A program made the translations under genes and the position numbers. 64,000 bases of DNA from Fidelibacterota bacterium. Its GTDB lineage: Bacteria; Fidelibacterota; Marinisomatia; SCGC-AAA003-L08; TS1B11. The notes below the pieces were generated by a model, which ran no database searches, was not told the origin of the DNA, and worked only from the letters and a program-made list of their open reading frames with translations. This document shows, piece after piece, positions 1,018 through 14,711 of this stretch (positions are counted from its first letter, which is position 1; every line of letters begins with the position of its first letter). The DNA is taken from positions 1 to 64,000 of the forward strand of contig SCKI01000001.1 of the NCBI GenBank assembly GCA_004124295.1. Reading direction: 5' to 3'.

Positions 1018-1703
1018 AGCTCTGCCTTGGCGGGCGCCAGGACCTGCACGTAGGCGGCCTTGCAGGCCGGTCCATCGCCATGCCAGACCAGCGACCGGCG
1101 GGGGTTGAGGCCGTCCAGGAGCATCATCGAACTTGAGCGGGTGCCGTATTTCTTGCCATGCTTGCAGATATCCGGATGGCTCTTCAACCGGTCGCTGTTG
1201 GCTTCCAGCCAGTCGGCGTTGGTGCCGGTCGCCTGCTGGAGCATCTGGCCATCCCAGGGCTCGTTGTCCACCTGGTACACGCCGGGATTGAGGCGGCCCT
1301 CCCAAAGGCCGTCGCCCGCCCAGGTGAACATGTGCGCCTCGAGGCCGTCGCCAACCAGCAGGTTGAATTTGTTGTAGCGGTGTTCCTTCAGCAGGGCGCG
1401 CAGCCGCCGCCGGGCTTTCTTGGCTGAGTCCAGCGCCAGCATCTCCGTTACCAGGCTGCCCCGGGAGCGGAAATCATCGCCTTCGAGAGACGGGAAAACA
1501 TTGGTCAGGGCCGCCAGGACGCCGGTCTCCCCAAAGCCGATCCAGGTGCCGCCGGCGACTTCGTCCAGCGGCGCAAAGTAGGGCCGCGGCCCCTCCCGCC
1601 AATCCCAGCCGGAGGAAGGGCGTCCGTAGGCCTCATCCCGGTTCGAGAGGACCGCCAGGGGATAGTTGTCGCCGGGGCGGTGGCGAAATAGGAGGGTGCA
1701 CAT
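1014..1703 (-). CDS. NRDE (TANGO2-like) family protein
   Basis: About 229 residues. The Asn-Arg-Asp-Glu signature that names the family is visible in LAVLSNRDEAY near residue 20, followed by the typical GGTWIG segment. I start it at the ATG giving MCTLLF rather than 16 codons upstream, because family members begin Met-Cys and the cysteine at position 2 is conserved. TANGO2 homologues are linked to haem and lipid handling in eukaryotes; the bacterial role is not established. Its stop overlaps the GTG start of coaBC, so the two are probably one transcript. No clear Shine-Dalgarno is visible. Confidence 0.88.
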   Translation of the reverse strand: MCTLLFRHRPGDNYPLAVLSNRDEAYGRPSSGWDWREGPRPYFAPLDEVAGGTWIGFGETGVLAALTNVFPSLEGDDFRSRGSLVTEMLALDSAKKARRRLRALLKEHRYNKFNLLVGDGLEAHMFTWAGDGLWEGRLNPGVYQVDNEPWDGQMLQQATGTNADWLEANSDRLKSHPDICKHGKKYGTRSSSMMLLDGLNPRRSLVWHGDGPACKAAYVQVLAPAKAEL

Positions 1704-3097: not shown

Positions 3098-5080
3098 TTA
3101 TCCGCCCGATTTTCTCCTTCTCAACATTTCCGTTGCCTGCTCTAAGTTCCTGCTTGTTTGCTGCCAGTAAATTTGATAATCCTTCTTGGTGAACACCTCT
3201 AAGGCAGATTGGTAAGCATCGACTGCCTCTAATATAAGAATGGTCCCCTCCTCCTTGTCGTAGCTCGCGCCGAGGTATAGTAAGGTTGTACCCAAGTTAT
3301 TATGTGCCATGGCCCAATCGAAAGGGAGGTTGTCCCGAGTAAACAATTCCAGTGCCGCAAAGCTGGTACTAATAGCCTCTTTAAGTAATTGTATTTTATC
3401 TGGACCAACAGTACGCCTACCAAGCTTGCTTAACATCGCGCCAAGGTTGCTCTGGTACCTAGCCCACCGAAATGGCAACCCATCTCTGGTGGTTACTTCC
3501 AAAGCAGAACGACAAGCAGCTATGGCTTCTCGGTAGTACGGGATACACTCTTTGTCTTGAGCGTTGTCCCCTAGGCTCCCCAACAGTGCCGCTAGGTTTA
3601 CATTTACCTGAGCCCACAGTCTGGGGTGATCCTCTTGAGTGTATACTACCAAAGAGGAGTGGCATGCGGAGACGGCCTCTTTTAAAAGTCGGTTCTTCTC
3701 CTCTTCTGTGGCCCTTTCTGCCTGATCACTCAGAACGCTTGCTAAGTTTATCATCGCCATAGCGAACTCGAGCGGCTGGTCATGGATATTTCGTAATTCA
3801 AGGGCTTCATGGATGGCAATTACTGCTCGATCCAAGAGGCCGGCACTTTCCTCTTCTTCGGATCGCCTCGCTAAATCGCGTAAGGCACCAGACATGTTGT
3901 TGTATGTCATTGCCTGCCCCTCAAGTGCGTTATCCCTTAGCGATGTGCCTAGAGCCACGCTGTAATGTTTGATAGCCTCATCCAGTAGTAGCTTCCCCCC
4001 CTCTCCCTCAATCTGTTCGGCATAGGTGCGTAAAGCATTTCCAAGGTTATTGTGGACTAACACCCAACTGGTCGGGCTCTTGATTTCGCGGTTTACGCTT
4101 AGGGAAAAACGAAATGCGGCGATGGACGCTTTAAGAAAGTCAATCCTCTCTGCTCCAGTTGATTCCTCACCCAACGCCATTAAAGCCAATCCTAGCTGAT
4201 TATGAATCGTGTCATCATTATTGTCTAGGTCCCCTTCCTTAGGCATTTCTAATACAGCATGAAGGGCCGTCGTAGCAGCTGCTAAATCAGCTTTAGGAGA
4301 GGTAGACTGTCGGGCTCTTGAATAATATACTACCGCTAGATAAAAAAGCCCTGAGAATGTGTTTAATGGTGCCAGAAGTTCAATTGCTTTATCAAAATTT
4401 CCATCGTTGTAGTAGGAAAGGCCATGGATTAGGGAAATAACATCAGCGACTTCGCTTGCCAACATCTTCTTGAAGTCGAGATGATCTGGGCCTGTGCTTG
4501 TCCGGTTCTCGAACTCGTGTCCTTCCAGCTGCTTCCCACCCAAGGGGTTGGCGACGGTAAGTCTAAGGTGGATGTGCAGCTCCTCCTCATCCAAAAATAC
4601 GTCACCCCAAATCACGATGTGAGCCTGTCCCTTCGGGGAGCTGCCCAAAGCCATAGCTGCGGCCTGCCGCTCATCCTCGGTGGCGCCCTGTATCGGTTCG
4701 GGCAGCTGTTTGAGTTGCAGAGGCACCCCTTCGTCTACCTTTTCTTCTAGGCTGATCTTTATGTGGTGAGGGAATTTTTCAGCATCGGGGGCTGCTGCAC
4801 CGCCAATGGGCAAAAAGGGAGTGATGGCAACGGTTAACTGGTCTGATGCGAGAGGGGGAAGGCTTGGTGGTCTGATGTGCTGGCGATAAAGCAAAAATGA
4901 AAAAATAATAATGGAAGCGGCAAGCAGGAGAAACGCCCAGTGCAAGAGCGTCTCCCTGAACTCAAGAGTGTAGAAATTCTGGACGAGATAAAATGCACCA
5001 GAAATCGCACCTATGAGCAACACCGGCCGGCGTTTTGCCGGACCGGCCCATTCGGTGAATAGATACTGGAAATATCCCAT
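3098..5080 (-). CDS. Membrane-anchored TPR protein
   Basis: 660 residues. Two hydrophobic segments near the N-terminus (about residues 20-37 and 44-62, the second LLHWAFLLLAASIIIFSFLL) anchor it in the membrane. A globular part follows (about 80-215, beginning LTVAITPFLPIGG), resembling the CsgG/FlgO-like domain that often precedes TPRs. From about residue 215 on it is built of tetratricopeptide-like helical pairs with recurring Asn-Leu-(Gly/Ala) turns such as HNNLGNALR, YNNMSGALRDLA and QSNLGAMLSKLG. The role is likely protein-protein interaction or scaffolding; no catalytic motif is seen. It is clearly AT-richer than its neighbours, suggesting a different origin. No good ribosome site precedes the ATG. 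Confidence 0.85.
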   Translation of the reverse strand: MGYFQYLFTEWAGPAKRRPVLLIGAISGAFYLVQNFYTLEFRETLLHWAFLLLAASIIIFSFLLYRQHIRPPSLPPLASDQLTVAITPFLPIGGAAAPDAEKFPHHIKISLEEKVDEGVPLQLKQLPEPIQGATEDERQAAAMALGSSPKGQAHIVIWGDVFLDEEELHIHLRLTVANPLGGKQLEGHEFENRTSTGPDHLDFKKMLASEVADVISLIHGLSYYNDGNFDKAIELLAPLNTFSGLFYLAVVYYSRARQSTSPKADLAAATTALHAVLEMPKEGDLDNNDDTIHNQLGLALMALGEESTGAERIDFLKASIAAFRFSLSVNREIKSPTSWVLVHNNLGNALRTYAEQIEGEGGKLLLDEAIKHYSVALGTSLRDNALEGQAMTYNNMSGALRDLARRSEEEESAGLLDRAVIAIHEALELRNIHDQPLEFAMAMINLASVLSDQAERATEEEKNRLLKEAVSACHSSLVVYTQEDHPRLWAQVNVNLAALLGSLGDNAQDKECIPYYREAIAACRSALEVTTRDGLPFRWARYQSNLGAMLSKLGRRTVGPDKIQLLKEAISTSFAALELFTRDNLPFDWAMAHNNLGTTLLYLGASYDKEEGTILILEAVDAYQSALEVFTKKDYQIYWQQTSRNLEQATEMLRRRKSGG

Positions 5081-10861: not shown

Positions 10862-11992
10862 TCAGCGGGTACGAATCACCGGCCATTGATCCACAACCTG
10901 GCCCGCTTGCACAATATAATAGGTGTCGAACAGCGGCGCCGTCAGGCAACTGTGATTGGGCAGAATCGTCAGACGGTCGCCCGGCTGCAGGCTGCTCACA
11001 TCCCCCGCCTTCCGGCCCCGGATGATGCCGTGTTCCTGGGACACGGACGCGACCCGGAAGGAGGGATGCAGGGCTCTGTTTTCGCCATTCGTGAGCACCA
11101 CCCCCCGATTGGCCTCAGGAGCGAGATGCACCGGCCCCGGATCGTGGGACAGGGCCAGCGCTCCGGCATCGACCACCGCGTGGTCCAGGTGGGACGGGCA
11201 GGATACCACGCTGGCCAGCACCGTTACCGCGCAGTCCCGCAGCGTGCAGCTGCCCAGCAGCAGTTGGGTGCGGTCGTAGAAGACATAGTTGCCGGGGCGG
11301 ATTTCGTCCACTCCGCTGACGGTCTGGGTAAGGGCCAGCGACGGCGTCGATCCGATGCTGACGGCGGGCACCGTTAAACCGGCCGCGCCGAGGCGGTCAA
11401 CGAGGGTGCCCAGGATGCGTTGCTCCTCACCGATGATGAACTTGATCTCGGTTGGCGATTCGGCCTGATAGGCGTGGCCGGCGTGGCTCAACAATCCTGC
11501 AAAGCGCAGGACCGGGCCGGTCGAGGCCAGGAAGCGGACCAGCTCCAGCACCTCGGCTCCGGCGGGATCGACGCCCGTGCGGTGGTAGCCCGCATCAACC
11601 TTGACCCAGACCGCCACGGACTGCTTCTGCTGGGTGGTGGCGGCGCCCAGAGCGGCGGCGGTCCCCAAATCATCAACCGTCAGGCCGAGATCAAGCTCCC
11701 CGGCAAGGGCCAGCGCCGGAAGTATTTTCCCCGGCTCCAGCGGCACCGCATAGGTGATGTCCTTGAATCCTCCGGCGCCAAACGCGGCGGCTTCAGCCAA
11801 GGTGCTGACGGTGATGCCAACCGCGCCGGCGGTCTGCTGCAGGCGGGCAATCTCGATACATTTGTGGGTCTTGATATGGGGCCGCAACCGGACCCCCAGG
11901 CTGGTGGCCTTGTCGGCCATCCTCAGGATGTTGCGGGTCAGGATATCGAGGTCGAGGAGCAGGGCCGGGGTGGGGAGATCATCGAGCCGCAT
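10862..11992 (-). CDS. DSD1-family PLP enzyme (D-threonine aldolase / D-serine dehydratase-like)
   Basis: 376 residues. N-terminal alanine-racemase-like barrel opening DLPTPALLLDLDILTRNI, with the PLP lysine in RPHIKTHKCIEIA (about residue 43), then a C-terminal beta domain ending with the metal-binding His and Cys of LPNHSCLTAPLFDTYYI. Family members act on D-3-hydroxyamino acids, cleaving D-threonine or dehydrating D-serine, using PLP and a divalent metal. Which reaction this one performs cannot be decided. It stands alone; the next 300 bp upstream contain no gene. Confidence 0.88.
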   Translation of the reverse strand: MRLDDLPTPALLLDLDILTRNILRMADKATSLGVRLRPHIKTHKCIEIARLQQTAGAVGITVSTLAEAAAFGAGGFKDITYAVPLEPGKILPALALAGELDLGLTVDDLGTAAALGAATTQQKQSVAVWVKVDAGYHRTGVDPAGAEVLELVRFLASTGPVLRFAGLLSHAGHAYQAESPTEIKFIIGEEQRILGTLVDRLGAAGLTVPAVSIGSTPSLALTQTVSGVDEIRPGNYVFYDRTQLLLGSCTLRDCAVTVLASVVSCPSHLDHAVVDAGALALSHDPGPVHLAPEANRGVVLTNGENRALHPSFRVASVSQEHGIIRGRKAGDVSSLQPGDRLTILPNHSCLTAPLFDTYYIVQAGQVVDQWPVIRTR

Positions 11993-12306
11993 GGGGCGAA
12001 TTTAAGGCCGATGTTGTGCAGCGGACAGCAGCTCCGGGCCGTTGGTGGTTCAATACGCGATCGAGGATTAGTTCAACGTAAAATGGACATCTCTTGAATA
12101 TGATTACCGACCAAAACCGGGAGCCTTGAACGAGGGCAAGAAATTGTGACAGGCAGATCGTTAGGCGCTCTAAATTATAAGAAGAGCTGGCTGGCCCAGG
12201 ACTTGGACTCCCAGGCCCCTCCTGCACGAATGGCATAATCTCCAAGTTGGACCAAGGAGGCTATGTATCTCCAAGTGACAGGGGGCGCCAGCCCTCCCCA
12301 TCTAAG
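11993..12306. other. Gene-free interval
   Basis: About 314 bp between the DSD1-type gene and the winged-helix gene. I see no coding frame with family features and no tRNA. TCTCCAAGT is repeated at 12239-12247 and 12268-12276; otherwise nothing clear. Confidence 0.5.
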
Positions 12307-12795
12307 TTAATTTTTCCTAAGGGCCTCAACGCGCTCGAGGCCCTTTCGCGTCAGCCGATACCGCTTCCTCGCCTGCTTCGTCGTTCCCTCCTTGCGCACC
12401 TGTAAGACTTGCCTCCGGCTAATGAGCGCTTGCATGTCACGCGTAATATTTGCTGAGGGAAACCCAAGATTTTTAAGTTCTGTGTTTATCTTATAGCTAT
12501 CAAACGAGTCTGCTCCTTGGATCGCCTGGAACCAATAGCTAACCGTAAGAATCCTGTCGAGCCCCGTTTTCGCTTCAACCGAATCGATAAAATCGTGATA
12601 ATCGCCTCTGTCCGCCACTACCGTGCTTGCGGTCAGAAACTGTGGTGCTTCTTTAATGTTTCTCGGCAGATTTGCGCCGGCGGGCAATCCAAAGCGCTCA
12701 ACCGCCCATTTCAATACTCGCGCTCTTGCCGCCTCGTCCTCCAATAATTGAAGGGCCTTAGAAATTTTTTCCATCGATTCGATTTCAGGGTCCAT
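12307..12795 (-). CDS. Putative winged-helix DNA-binding protein, unknown function
   Basis: 162 residues. The N-terminal helix (MEKISKALQLLEDEAARARV, then LKWAVERFG) is typical of a widespread group of uncharacterised proteins; the C-terminal half looks like a winged helix, with SYKINTELKNLGFPSANITR as the recognition part and a basic wing (RKEGTTKQARKRYRLTRKGL). A ribosome site AGGAGG sits six bases before the ATG at 12795. It lies in a low-GC islet, and an 8-bp-arm palindrome just upstream could be its own operator. Role as an autoregulated DNA-binding protein is inferred from sequence pattern only. Confidence 0.75.
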   Translation of the reverse strand: MDPEIESMEKISKALQLLEDEAARARVLKWAVERFGLPAGANLPRNIKEAPQFLTASTVVADRGDYHDFIDSVEAKTGLDRILTVSYWFQAIQGADSFDSYKINTELKNLGFPSANITRDMQALISRRQVLQVRKEGTTKQARKRYRLTRKGLERVEALRKN

Positions 12796-12823
12796 GACGG
12801 TCCTCCTGTTTCTGGGCTAGAAT

Positions 12824-12843
12824 TTATCCCGTAAGCGGAATAA
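12824..12843. promoter_or_regulatory. Palindromic operator candidate upstream of the winged-helix gene
   Basis: Inverted repeat TTATCCCG - TAAG - CGGAATAA with 7 of 8 arm bases matched, centred about 38 bp before the gene start. Position and symmetry suit a dimeric repressor. Confidence 0.5.
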
Positions 12844-13055
12844 GGTCAAGGGGAATTCCGGATGACATGACAACATGGACTTTCCTGATACGCCGTTGAA
12901 CTAAAATTTCATCCTAGTTAAACAAAGTTAATATAACTAAGGATATGCGATAATTTCAACTGTGAGATAGCACGATAATATTCGTATTGTTTTCGTATTT
13001 CACTTCTTACGTGATCATATTATTGTTCTAGTAGGAGCGGAGATATTCCCACAAA

Positions 13056-13210
13056 CAGCTACTTATTGGCTAATATTGTATTTGTTATTAGGGATCAGAT
13101 ACATTCCATGCTAAATATAGGTCACATGCTACAAATACTTTCATAGTACTTACCAGATAGCTAGGCTTGCCGTGCTATTGTTAGCTGAGTCTTGGGATCG
13201 CTCGCTCTTA
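13056..13210. repeat. Degenerate direct repeat, copy A
   Basis: Aligns without net gaps to copy B exactly 303 nt downstream. Shared blocks: CAGCTACTTATTGGCT (15 of 16), GATACAT, ATGCT, TACTTTCATAGTACTT (14 of 16), TAGCTAGGCTTGCCG (14 of 15) and a terminal CGCTC. By eye identity is around 60 percent. The seed CAGCTACTA recurs at 13258, 101 nt before copy B. Confidence 0.65.
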
Positions 13211-13358
13211 TTATGTTTATAGGAAATAAATGATAACTCTCTTCATAGTTGGCGATCCAGCTACTACGTCTAGCGAGTGGTATCGTTCGTATAGATTGCG
13301 TAGTTCTATCTTCATCATCGCATCTATAACGAAAATTATCATGCTGAAACCTAATCAG

Positions 13359-13513
13359 CAGCTACTAATTGGCTGTATTCGTCAGTTCTTCTCTGCACAA
13401 GATACATAGTATGCTCAATTATGGGTGTGTGCGGTACCTACTTTGATAATACTTTCTATGTAGCTAGGTTTGCCGAACTATTATTTGCTAAGCCTAAAGA
13501 CCGCTCTTTATTA
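13359..13513. repeat. Degenerate direct repeat, copy B
   Basis: Second copy, with CAGCTACTAATTGGCT at 13359, GATACAT at 13401, TACTTTGATAATACTT at 13439 and TAGCTAGGTTTGCCG at 13461, each 303 nt after its partner in copy A. Confidence 0.65.
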
Positions 13514-13595
13514 ATTCGTTCCCACTATTTTATAGTCTCTGTTTAAAAAATTTCTGAATCATTTTCCGTCCTCGGTAATTTTAATTTCGCCTACT

Positions 13596-14711
13596 ATGCA
13601 CTTCACCTGCACATCCTGCCGGGCCGATCACGATGCCACTGCGCCCCGGACCGTCTGCACCCGCTGCGGCATGCCGCTGGAGGTGGACTACGGCTTTGCC
13701 CCCGGCCAGATCGCCAAAAACGACCTGGAGGAGACCGGCACCCTCTGGCGCTACGCCCCCTTTCTGCCCACCGTCCCTGCGGCGGAGCGGATCACCCTCG
13801 GGGAAGGGGGGACGCCGCTGGTGAAATTGACCCACCACCACCGCACCCTATACCTGAAAGACGAGACTGGCAACCCCACCGGCTCCTTCAAGGACCGGGG
13901 GCTGGCGCTGGCCATCACACTGGCCCGGCTGCGGGGTATCGAGCGGCTGGCGCTGCCCTCGGCCGGGAACGCCGGTGTCTCGGCAGCGGCCTATGCCCAA
14001 GCCGGGGAGCTGGCCTGCCGGGTGTTCATGCCCAGCACCATCCCCCAGCCGTTCGTGGATGCGGTGGCCGGCTACGGCGCCGAAGTGGTGTTAGCCGGTA
14101 AAACCATCGCCGAGGCCGGTGCGGCCATGATAGAAAGTATCGATGGCTCCTGGTTCAACCTTTCGACGCTCAAGGAACCGTATCGGGTGGAAGGCAAAAA
14201 GACCCTGGGGCTGGAGATTGCTGAGCAACTCGACTGGACCGCTCCGGACGTGGTGGTCTATCCGGCCGGCGGCGGCACGGGACTGGTCGGCATCTGGAAG
14301 GCGCTGAAGGAGCTGCAACAGGTCGGCTGGTTATCCGGCCCCCTGCCCCGCATGGTGGTGGTGCAGACTGCCGGCTGCGCGCCGGTAGTGCGGGCATTCG
14401 AGGCGGGGCATACCATCACCGCGCCCTGGGCTGAGCCGGTAACTGCCGCCTTGGGCCTCAATGTGCCGGCGCCGTTGGGCGGGGCCTGGATGCTGAAGGT
14501 GTTGCGGGACAGCGGCGGGAAAGCGTTGGCCGTTCCGGAAGATGACCTGGAGCCAGCGATGACGCGCCTGCAGGATGTCTCCGGCATCCCGGCGGGTCCG
14601 GAAGCGGCGGCGGCCTGGTGGGCCACTGAGCAGCTCATGGAGGACGGCTGGATCGCGCCCGGCGAAAGGGTGGTGATCGTCGTCACCGGCGACGACCGGA
14701 GGTATGTCTAG
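13596..14711 (+). CDS. thrC: Threonine synthase
   Basis: 371 residues. PLP enzyme that turns O-phosphohomoserine into threonine. An N-terminal zinc ribbon (C5-x2-C8 and C21-x2-C24) is followed by the fold-type II core: PLP lysine K99 in NPTGSFKDRG, the substrate loop SAGNAGVSAAAYA, and a glycine-rich phosphate-binding site YPAGGGTGLVG. The AT-rich islet lies immediately upstream; no Shine-Dalgarno is visible before the ATG. Its stop overlaps the last 4 bases of the convergent YggS gene. No other threonine genes are adjacent. Confidence 0.94.
   Translation: MHFTCTSCRADHDATAPRTVCTRCGMPLEVDYGFAPGQIAKNDLEETGTLWRYAPFLPTVPAAERITLGEGGTPLVKLTHHHRTLYLKDETGNPTGSFKDRGLALAITLARLRGIERLALPSAGNAGVSAAAYAQAGELACRVFMPSTIPQPFVDAVAGYGAEVVLAGKTIAEAGAAMIESIDGSWFNLSTLKEPYRVEGKKTLGLEIAEQLDWTAPDVVVYPAGGGTGLVGIWKALKELQQVGWLSGPLPRMVVVQTAGCAPVVRAFEAGHTITAPWAEPVTAALGLNVPAPLGGAWMLKVLRDSGGKALAVPEDDLEPAMTRLQDVSGIPAGPEAAAAWWATEQLMEDGWIAPGERVVIVVTGDDRRYV

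Follow-up and report, generated by a model that had tools for sequence, protein, structure and literature searches.

The window analysed here is the whole stretch of 64,000 nucleotides at the start of contig SCKI01000001.1 from a Fidelibacterota bacterium. It includes a D-serine-dehydratase-like gene and a PALP gene, which flank an interval with a small gene and an AT-rich stretch that contains a diverged direct repeat. The features are as follows (positions are those of the window):

10862-11992, minus strand: D-serine-dehydratase-like gene
11993-13595, no strand: interval in which the inserted islet lies, exceeding the gap of relatives by about 1.5 kb
12307-12795, minus strand: 162-aa gene, probably a winged-helix regulator, of sporadic distribution
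12824-12843, no strand: imperfect palindrome TTATCCCG-TAAG-CGGAATAA
12844-13595, no strand: AT-rich stretch without a gene
12981-13217, plus strand: repeat copy A in its gapped extent (gapless core 13056-13217)
13052-13345, plus strand: stretch with a weak internal relation at about 102 nt (13052-13240 against 13154-13345)
13286-13520, plus strand: repeat copy B in its gapped extent (gapless core 13359-13520)
13596-14711, plus strand: PALP gene

The gap between the two flanking genes is 1603 bp here, as against 54-93 bp in seven relatives. A genome of the same genus has the two genes side by side and divergent, 54 bp apart, and in six further members of the family 68-93 bp lie between them (raw tblastn ends). 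The DNA that is extra relative to the family consists of the 162-aa gene and the AT-rich stretch, and no second copy of it was found elsewhere in the genome. Its composition is foreign: GC in the region is 0.37-0.40, compared with 0.59 across 464 kb of the contig, and the TpA odds ratio is 1.18 in the islet and 0.71 in the window. Stops are present in all six frames of the AT-rich stretch, and the low-GC islet described by an earlier, sequence-only reading is thus borne out. What that reading overlooked is that the feature is inserted; the repeat region is part of a lineage-specific islet of roughly 1.5 kb of foreign DNA. No integrase, transposase, terminal repeat or target duplication was seen at the islet. 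Its end regions (the ends being approximate) have no word of at least 10 nt in common, direct or inverted; for a transposon or MITE, this comparison gave neither terminal inverted repeats nor a target-site duplication. A replication origin was rejected as well, as the islet has no exact DnaA box. Elsewhere on the same contig, at about 356-421 kb, AT-rich stretches are clustered, several of them without long open frames; this is possibly a genomic island.

Nothing in 245 phylum genomes, in phages or in plasmids matches the 162-aa gene. Its single clear relative found is in a Bipolaricaulota MAG (36% identical), while a second Bipolaricaulota match is partial and weak (E 1.6e-4). In the MAG with the clear relative, the sequence preceding the gene is rich in GC and lacks a repeat of this kind. 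The winged-helix identity suggested earlier is plausible and weakly supported: the winged-helix-type matches are sub-threshold, and the predicted structure is of low confidence (pLDDT 53). An operator had also been suggested for this gene. The imperfect palindrome at 12824-12843 lies between promoter-like hexamers, which makes it a plausible candidate auto-operator, but it is not significant alone. The gene probably controls its own predicted promoter. Given the position of the palindrome between the hexamers, this promoter would extend to about 12849 and could do without the repeat region. In L019 the regulator's relative has a 4-bp overlap with the next gene, and about 2 kb upstream of it lies a gene that matches a HEPN model in PADLOC (E 1.3e-6), so it is possible that the relative is tied to accessory or defence genes there. 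A transporter-like gene in L019 (1321-2685, plus strand) has a 3' end (about 2500-2685) that, judged by eye, is apparently repeated in diverged form at about 4680-4865. The two gene ends lie on either side of the accessory genes that adjoin the regulator's relative, an arrangement reminiscent of an insertion that duplicates the end of a gene.

Within the AT-rich stretch there is an internal duplication that is real, old and diverged. Copies A (13056-13217) and B (13359-13520) align at an offset of 303 over 162 nt without gaps, with 104 of 162 positions identical (64.2%) and a score of 46; in the first box common to both, identity is 15/16. The best score among 300 dinucleotide-preserving shuffles was 16. 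The head-to-tail copies are therefore more alike than shuffled DNA, the comparison that the sequence-only reading had proposed for its repeat. A survey of 464 kb of the same contig covered 43 AT-rich stretches, and none but this one has a strong self-repeat; the others score 8-14. The copies are too diverged to be detected by a fixed-length repeat finder or by Tandem Repeats Finder, which gave no row at score 30. A gapped self-alignment widens the repeat to 12981-13217 against 13286-13520. In the poorly matching part left of 13055 the offset moves from 305 to 303, so an offset of exactly 303 nt without net gaps, as first described, is true only inside the 162-nt core. Homology spans about 237 of the 303 nt of the putative unit, and the remaining ~66 nt show no similarity; the DNA between the two homologous copies is unrelated. 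Truncation at the right junction may explain why the rest of the unit is missing.

A base period of 101 nt had been suspected. At an offset of exactly 101 the AT-rich stretch shares a 9-mer at most, but a gapped alignment at offsets of 102-105 (13052-13240 against 13154-13345) has 112/197 identical positions and a score of 116. This is above all of 1000 null alignments made by column permutation that keeps the 303 repeat (null maximum 100). AGCTA is present as a word at five places in the stretch (13057, 13159, 13259, 13360 and 13462), and two of these spacings are a consequence of the 303 repeat itself. When ~101-nt monomers are compared pairwise, only those three apart are strongly alike (M1-M4 with z 12, M2-M5 with z 8.9), and the pairs M2-M3 (z 2.6) and M0-M4 (z 2.8) are weak. 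The ~102-nt alignment and the pattern of monomer pairs make a decayed array with duplication at the trimer level likely, though not proved. Alignment scores at offsets 202 and 404 are at chance level, and with these silent offsets and the ~66 nt without similarity a regular array is not fully supported.

The repeat, which the sequence-only reading wanted sought in related genomes and whose absence it would have counted against itself, is absent from relatives because the whole islet is absent there. DNA searches of phages, plasmids, E. coli and 60 and 245 related genomes gave nothing except one 33-nt match, which was taken as chance. Pattern scans of the genome and of viral contigs found no relatives either, a weak negative since the scans were sparse and tolerated no mismatch in the boxes. 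A sequence model built from both copies led to no accepted relatives among the phylum genomes; weak matches in G172 and G203 overlap or adjoin coding sequence and were put down to chance. The one in G172 did outscore shuffled versions of itself in alignment, though it was the best of 244 genomes. Nothing pertinent was found in the literature. In another related genome (L053, about 1050-1280, minus strand), a frame reading ...VVVHYFGHFY*GTCTTRFGQ... runs through a single in-frame TGA and joins the ORF at 129-1079. The TGA is placed as the U in a UGTC motif, and the product is likely a thioredoxin-like selenoprotein.

Of the three readings first offered for the repeat, a decayed tandem array fits best, while a structured RNA is unsupported and selection on spacing is suggestive only. 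Single-sequence folds of both strands and of sub-segments are not above shuffles (z -0.9 to 1.7). Consensus folds compared with column-shuffled alignments give z -1.2 to 1.3, a weak test with two sequences only, and an Rfam scan of the region and the window gave no match. For the spacing, neutral duplicates at the observed distance were simulated and scored for an equally good gapless stretch. With 2 indels per 100 substitutions, 48-56% of the simulated duplicates reached the observed gapless score; with 5 the share was 15-18%, with 10 it was 2-3% and with 15 it was <1%. Neutral decay is thus compatible with the repeat where indels are infrequent (fewer than ~5 for every 100 substitutions). 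Mild clustering is seen among the conserved positions (p about 0.04), and together with the missing indels this blocky conservation is a hint of selection on spacing rather than a demonstration. A role as paired RNA or in protein binding is conceivable mainly because indels are missing. On this reading the copies would be two paralogous functional non-coding elements (small RNAs or protein-bound DNA control elements) with selected boxes and spacing, and the 162 nt without an indel despite 36% divergence, the clustering and the adjoining regulator-like gene all speak for it. Set against these are the fold and Rfam results, the lack of any convincing promoter or terminator that occupies corresponding positions in the two copies, and the lack of relatives elsewhere in which conservation could be seen, and we consider it rather unlikely. 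Unlikelier still is a fuller version in which such elements, as unstructured RNAs or protein-binding arrays with selected internal spacing, are mobile with the winged-helix regulator and form an undescribed regulatory or defence-linked module.

The offset is divisible by three, so the repeat could be decayed protein-coding DNA with a duplicated module of 101 codons (303 = 3 x 101). In tests of codon position, BLOSUM similarity and synonymous change (NG86), one plus-strand frame of the six has amino-acid similarity about 2 sd above the null. However, no frame has a significant synonymous excess, every frame around both copies carries stops, and read-through frames match nothing in Pfam (six frames) or PHROGs (three frames searched). 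The repeat was accordingly rejected as coding sequence or pseudogene, and a coding origin is very improbable. A separate arrival of two related short mobile or recombination elements, rather than a tandem duplication, would suit the limited homology (about 162-237 nt) and the unrelated DNA that separates the copies. It is slightly less credible again, as a third copy was found neither in the genome nor in relatives, phages or plasmids, the ends have no inverted repeats, and the ~102-nt relation favours a tandem origin. A native origin of the extra DNA, with loss from all sampled relatives, is barely credible, for although the direction of change is read from presence and absence only, the short gap is common to seven family members, the composition is foreign and the phylum has no relative of the gene.

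The account we favour, and hold to be slightly on the probable side, is a laterally acquired islet with an old tandem duplication. An islet of ~1.5 kb would have entered a gap of ~54-93 bp between two divergent genes by lateral transfer, bringing with it a small gene, probably a self-regulating winged-helix one, and non-coding AT-rich DNA of about 700 bp. In that DNA a segment of ~303 nt, itself probably built from ~101-nt units, would have been duplicated in tandem by slippage or unequal recombination, and the copies would since have diverged to 64% identity through point mutation, leaving a repeat that presumably has no sequence-specific function now. The lateral part is based on the empty site in seven relatives, the lack of other copies, the foreign dinucleotides and the sporadic regulator. 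The decayed duplication is based on a repeat far above shuffles, a sub-period of one third of 303, and the lack of RNA, protein or coding signal; scarce indels, mild blockiness, the ~66 unmatched nt and the silent 202 and 404 offsets speak against it. Overall, the original observation is confirmed, its interpretation is partly supported, and a function is unproven.

If selection truly acts on the spacing, this would be a compact mobile regulator together with a paired non-coding element of a type not yet known. On present evidence it exemplifies lineage-specific islets that contain diverged internal repeats, and nothing shows the repeat to be a new kind of RNA or control element. Its main use is as a warning that AT-rich DNA with strong self-similarity does not have to signify an RNA.

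Compared with known systems, the two copies are like tandem paralogous small-RNA genes of bacteria in being direct-repeat non-coding units with conserved blocks, but here there is no common fold, Rfam match, or matching promoter or terminator. Degenerate intergenic tandem repeats, such as bacterial minisatellite-type arrays, share the head-to-tail non-coding units (about 101 or 303 nt here), although in this case the repeat is too diverged for Tandem Repeats Finder and consists of one clear pair and weak sub-units. Even without the mobility genes and end repeats that were looked for, the islet as a whole is like small laterally acquired islets with one regulator, being lineage-specific and AT-rich, with a sporadic gene, and lying between genes that are neighbours in relatives.
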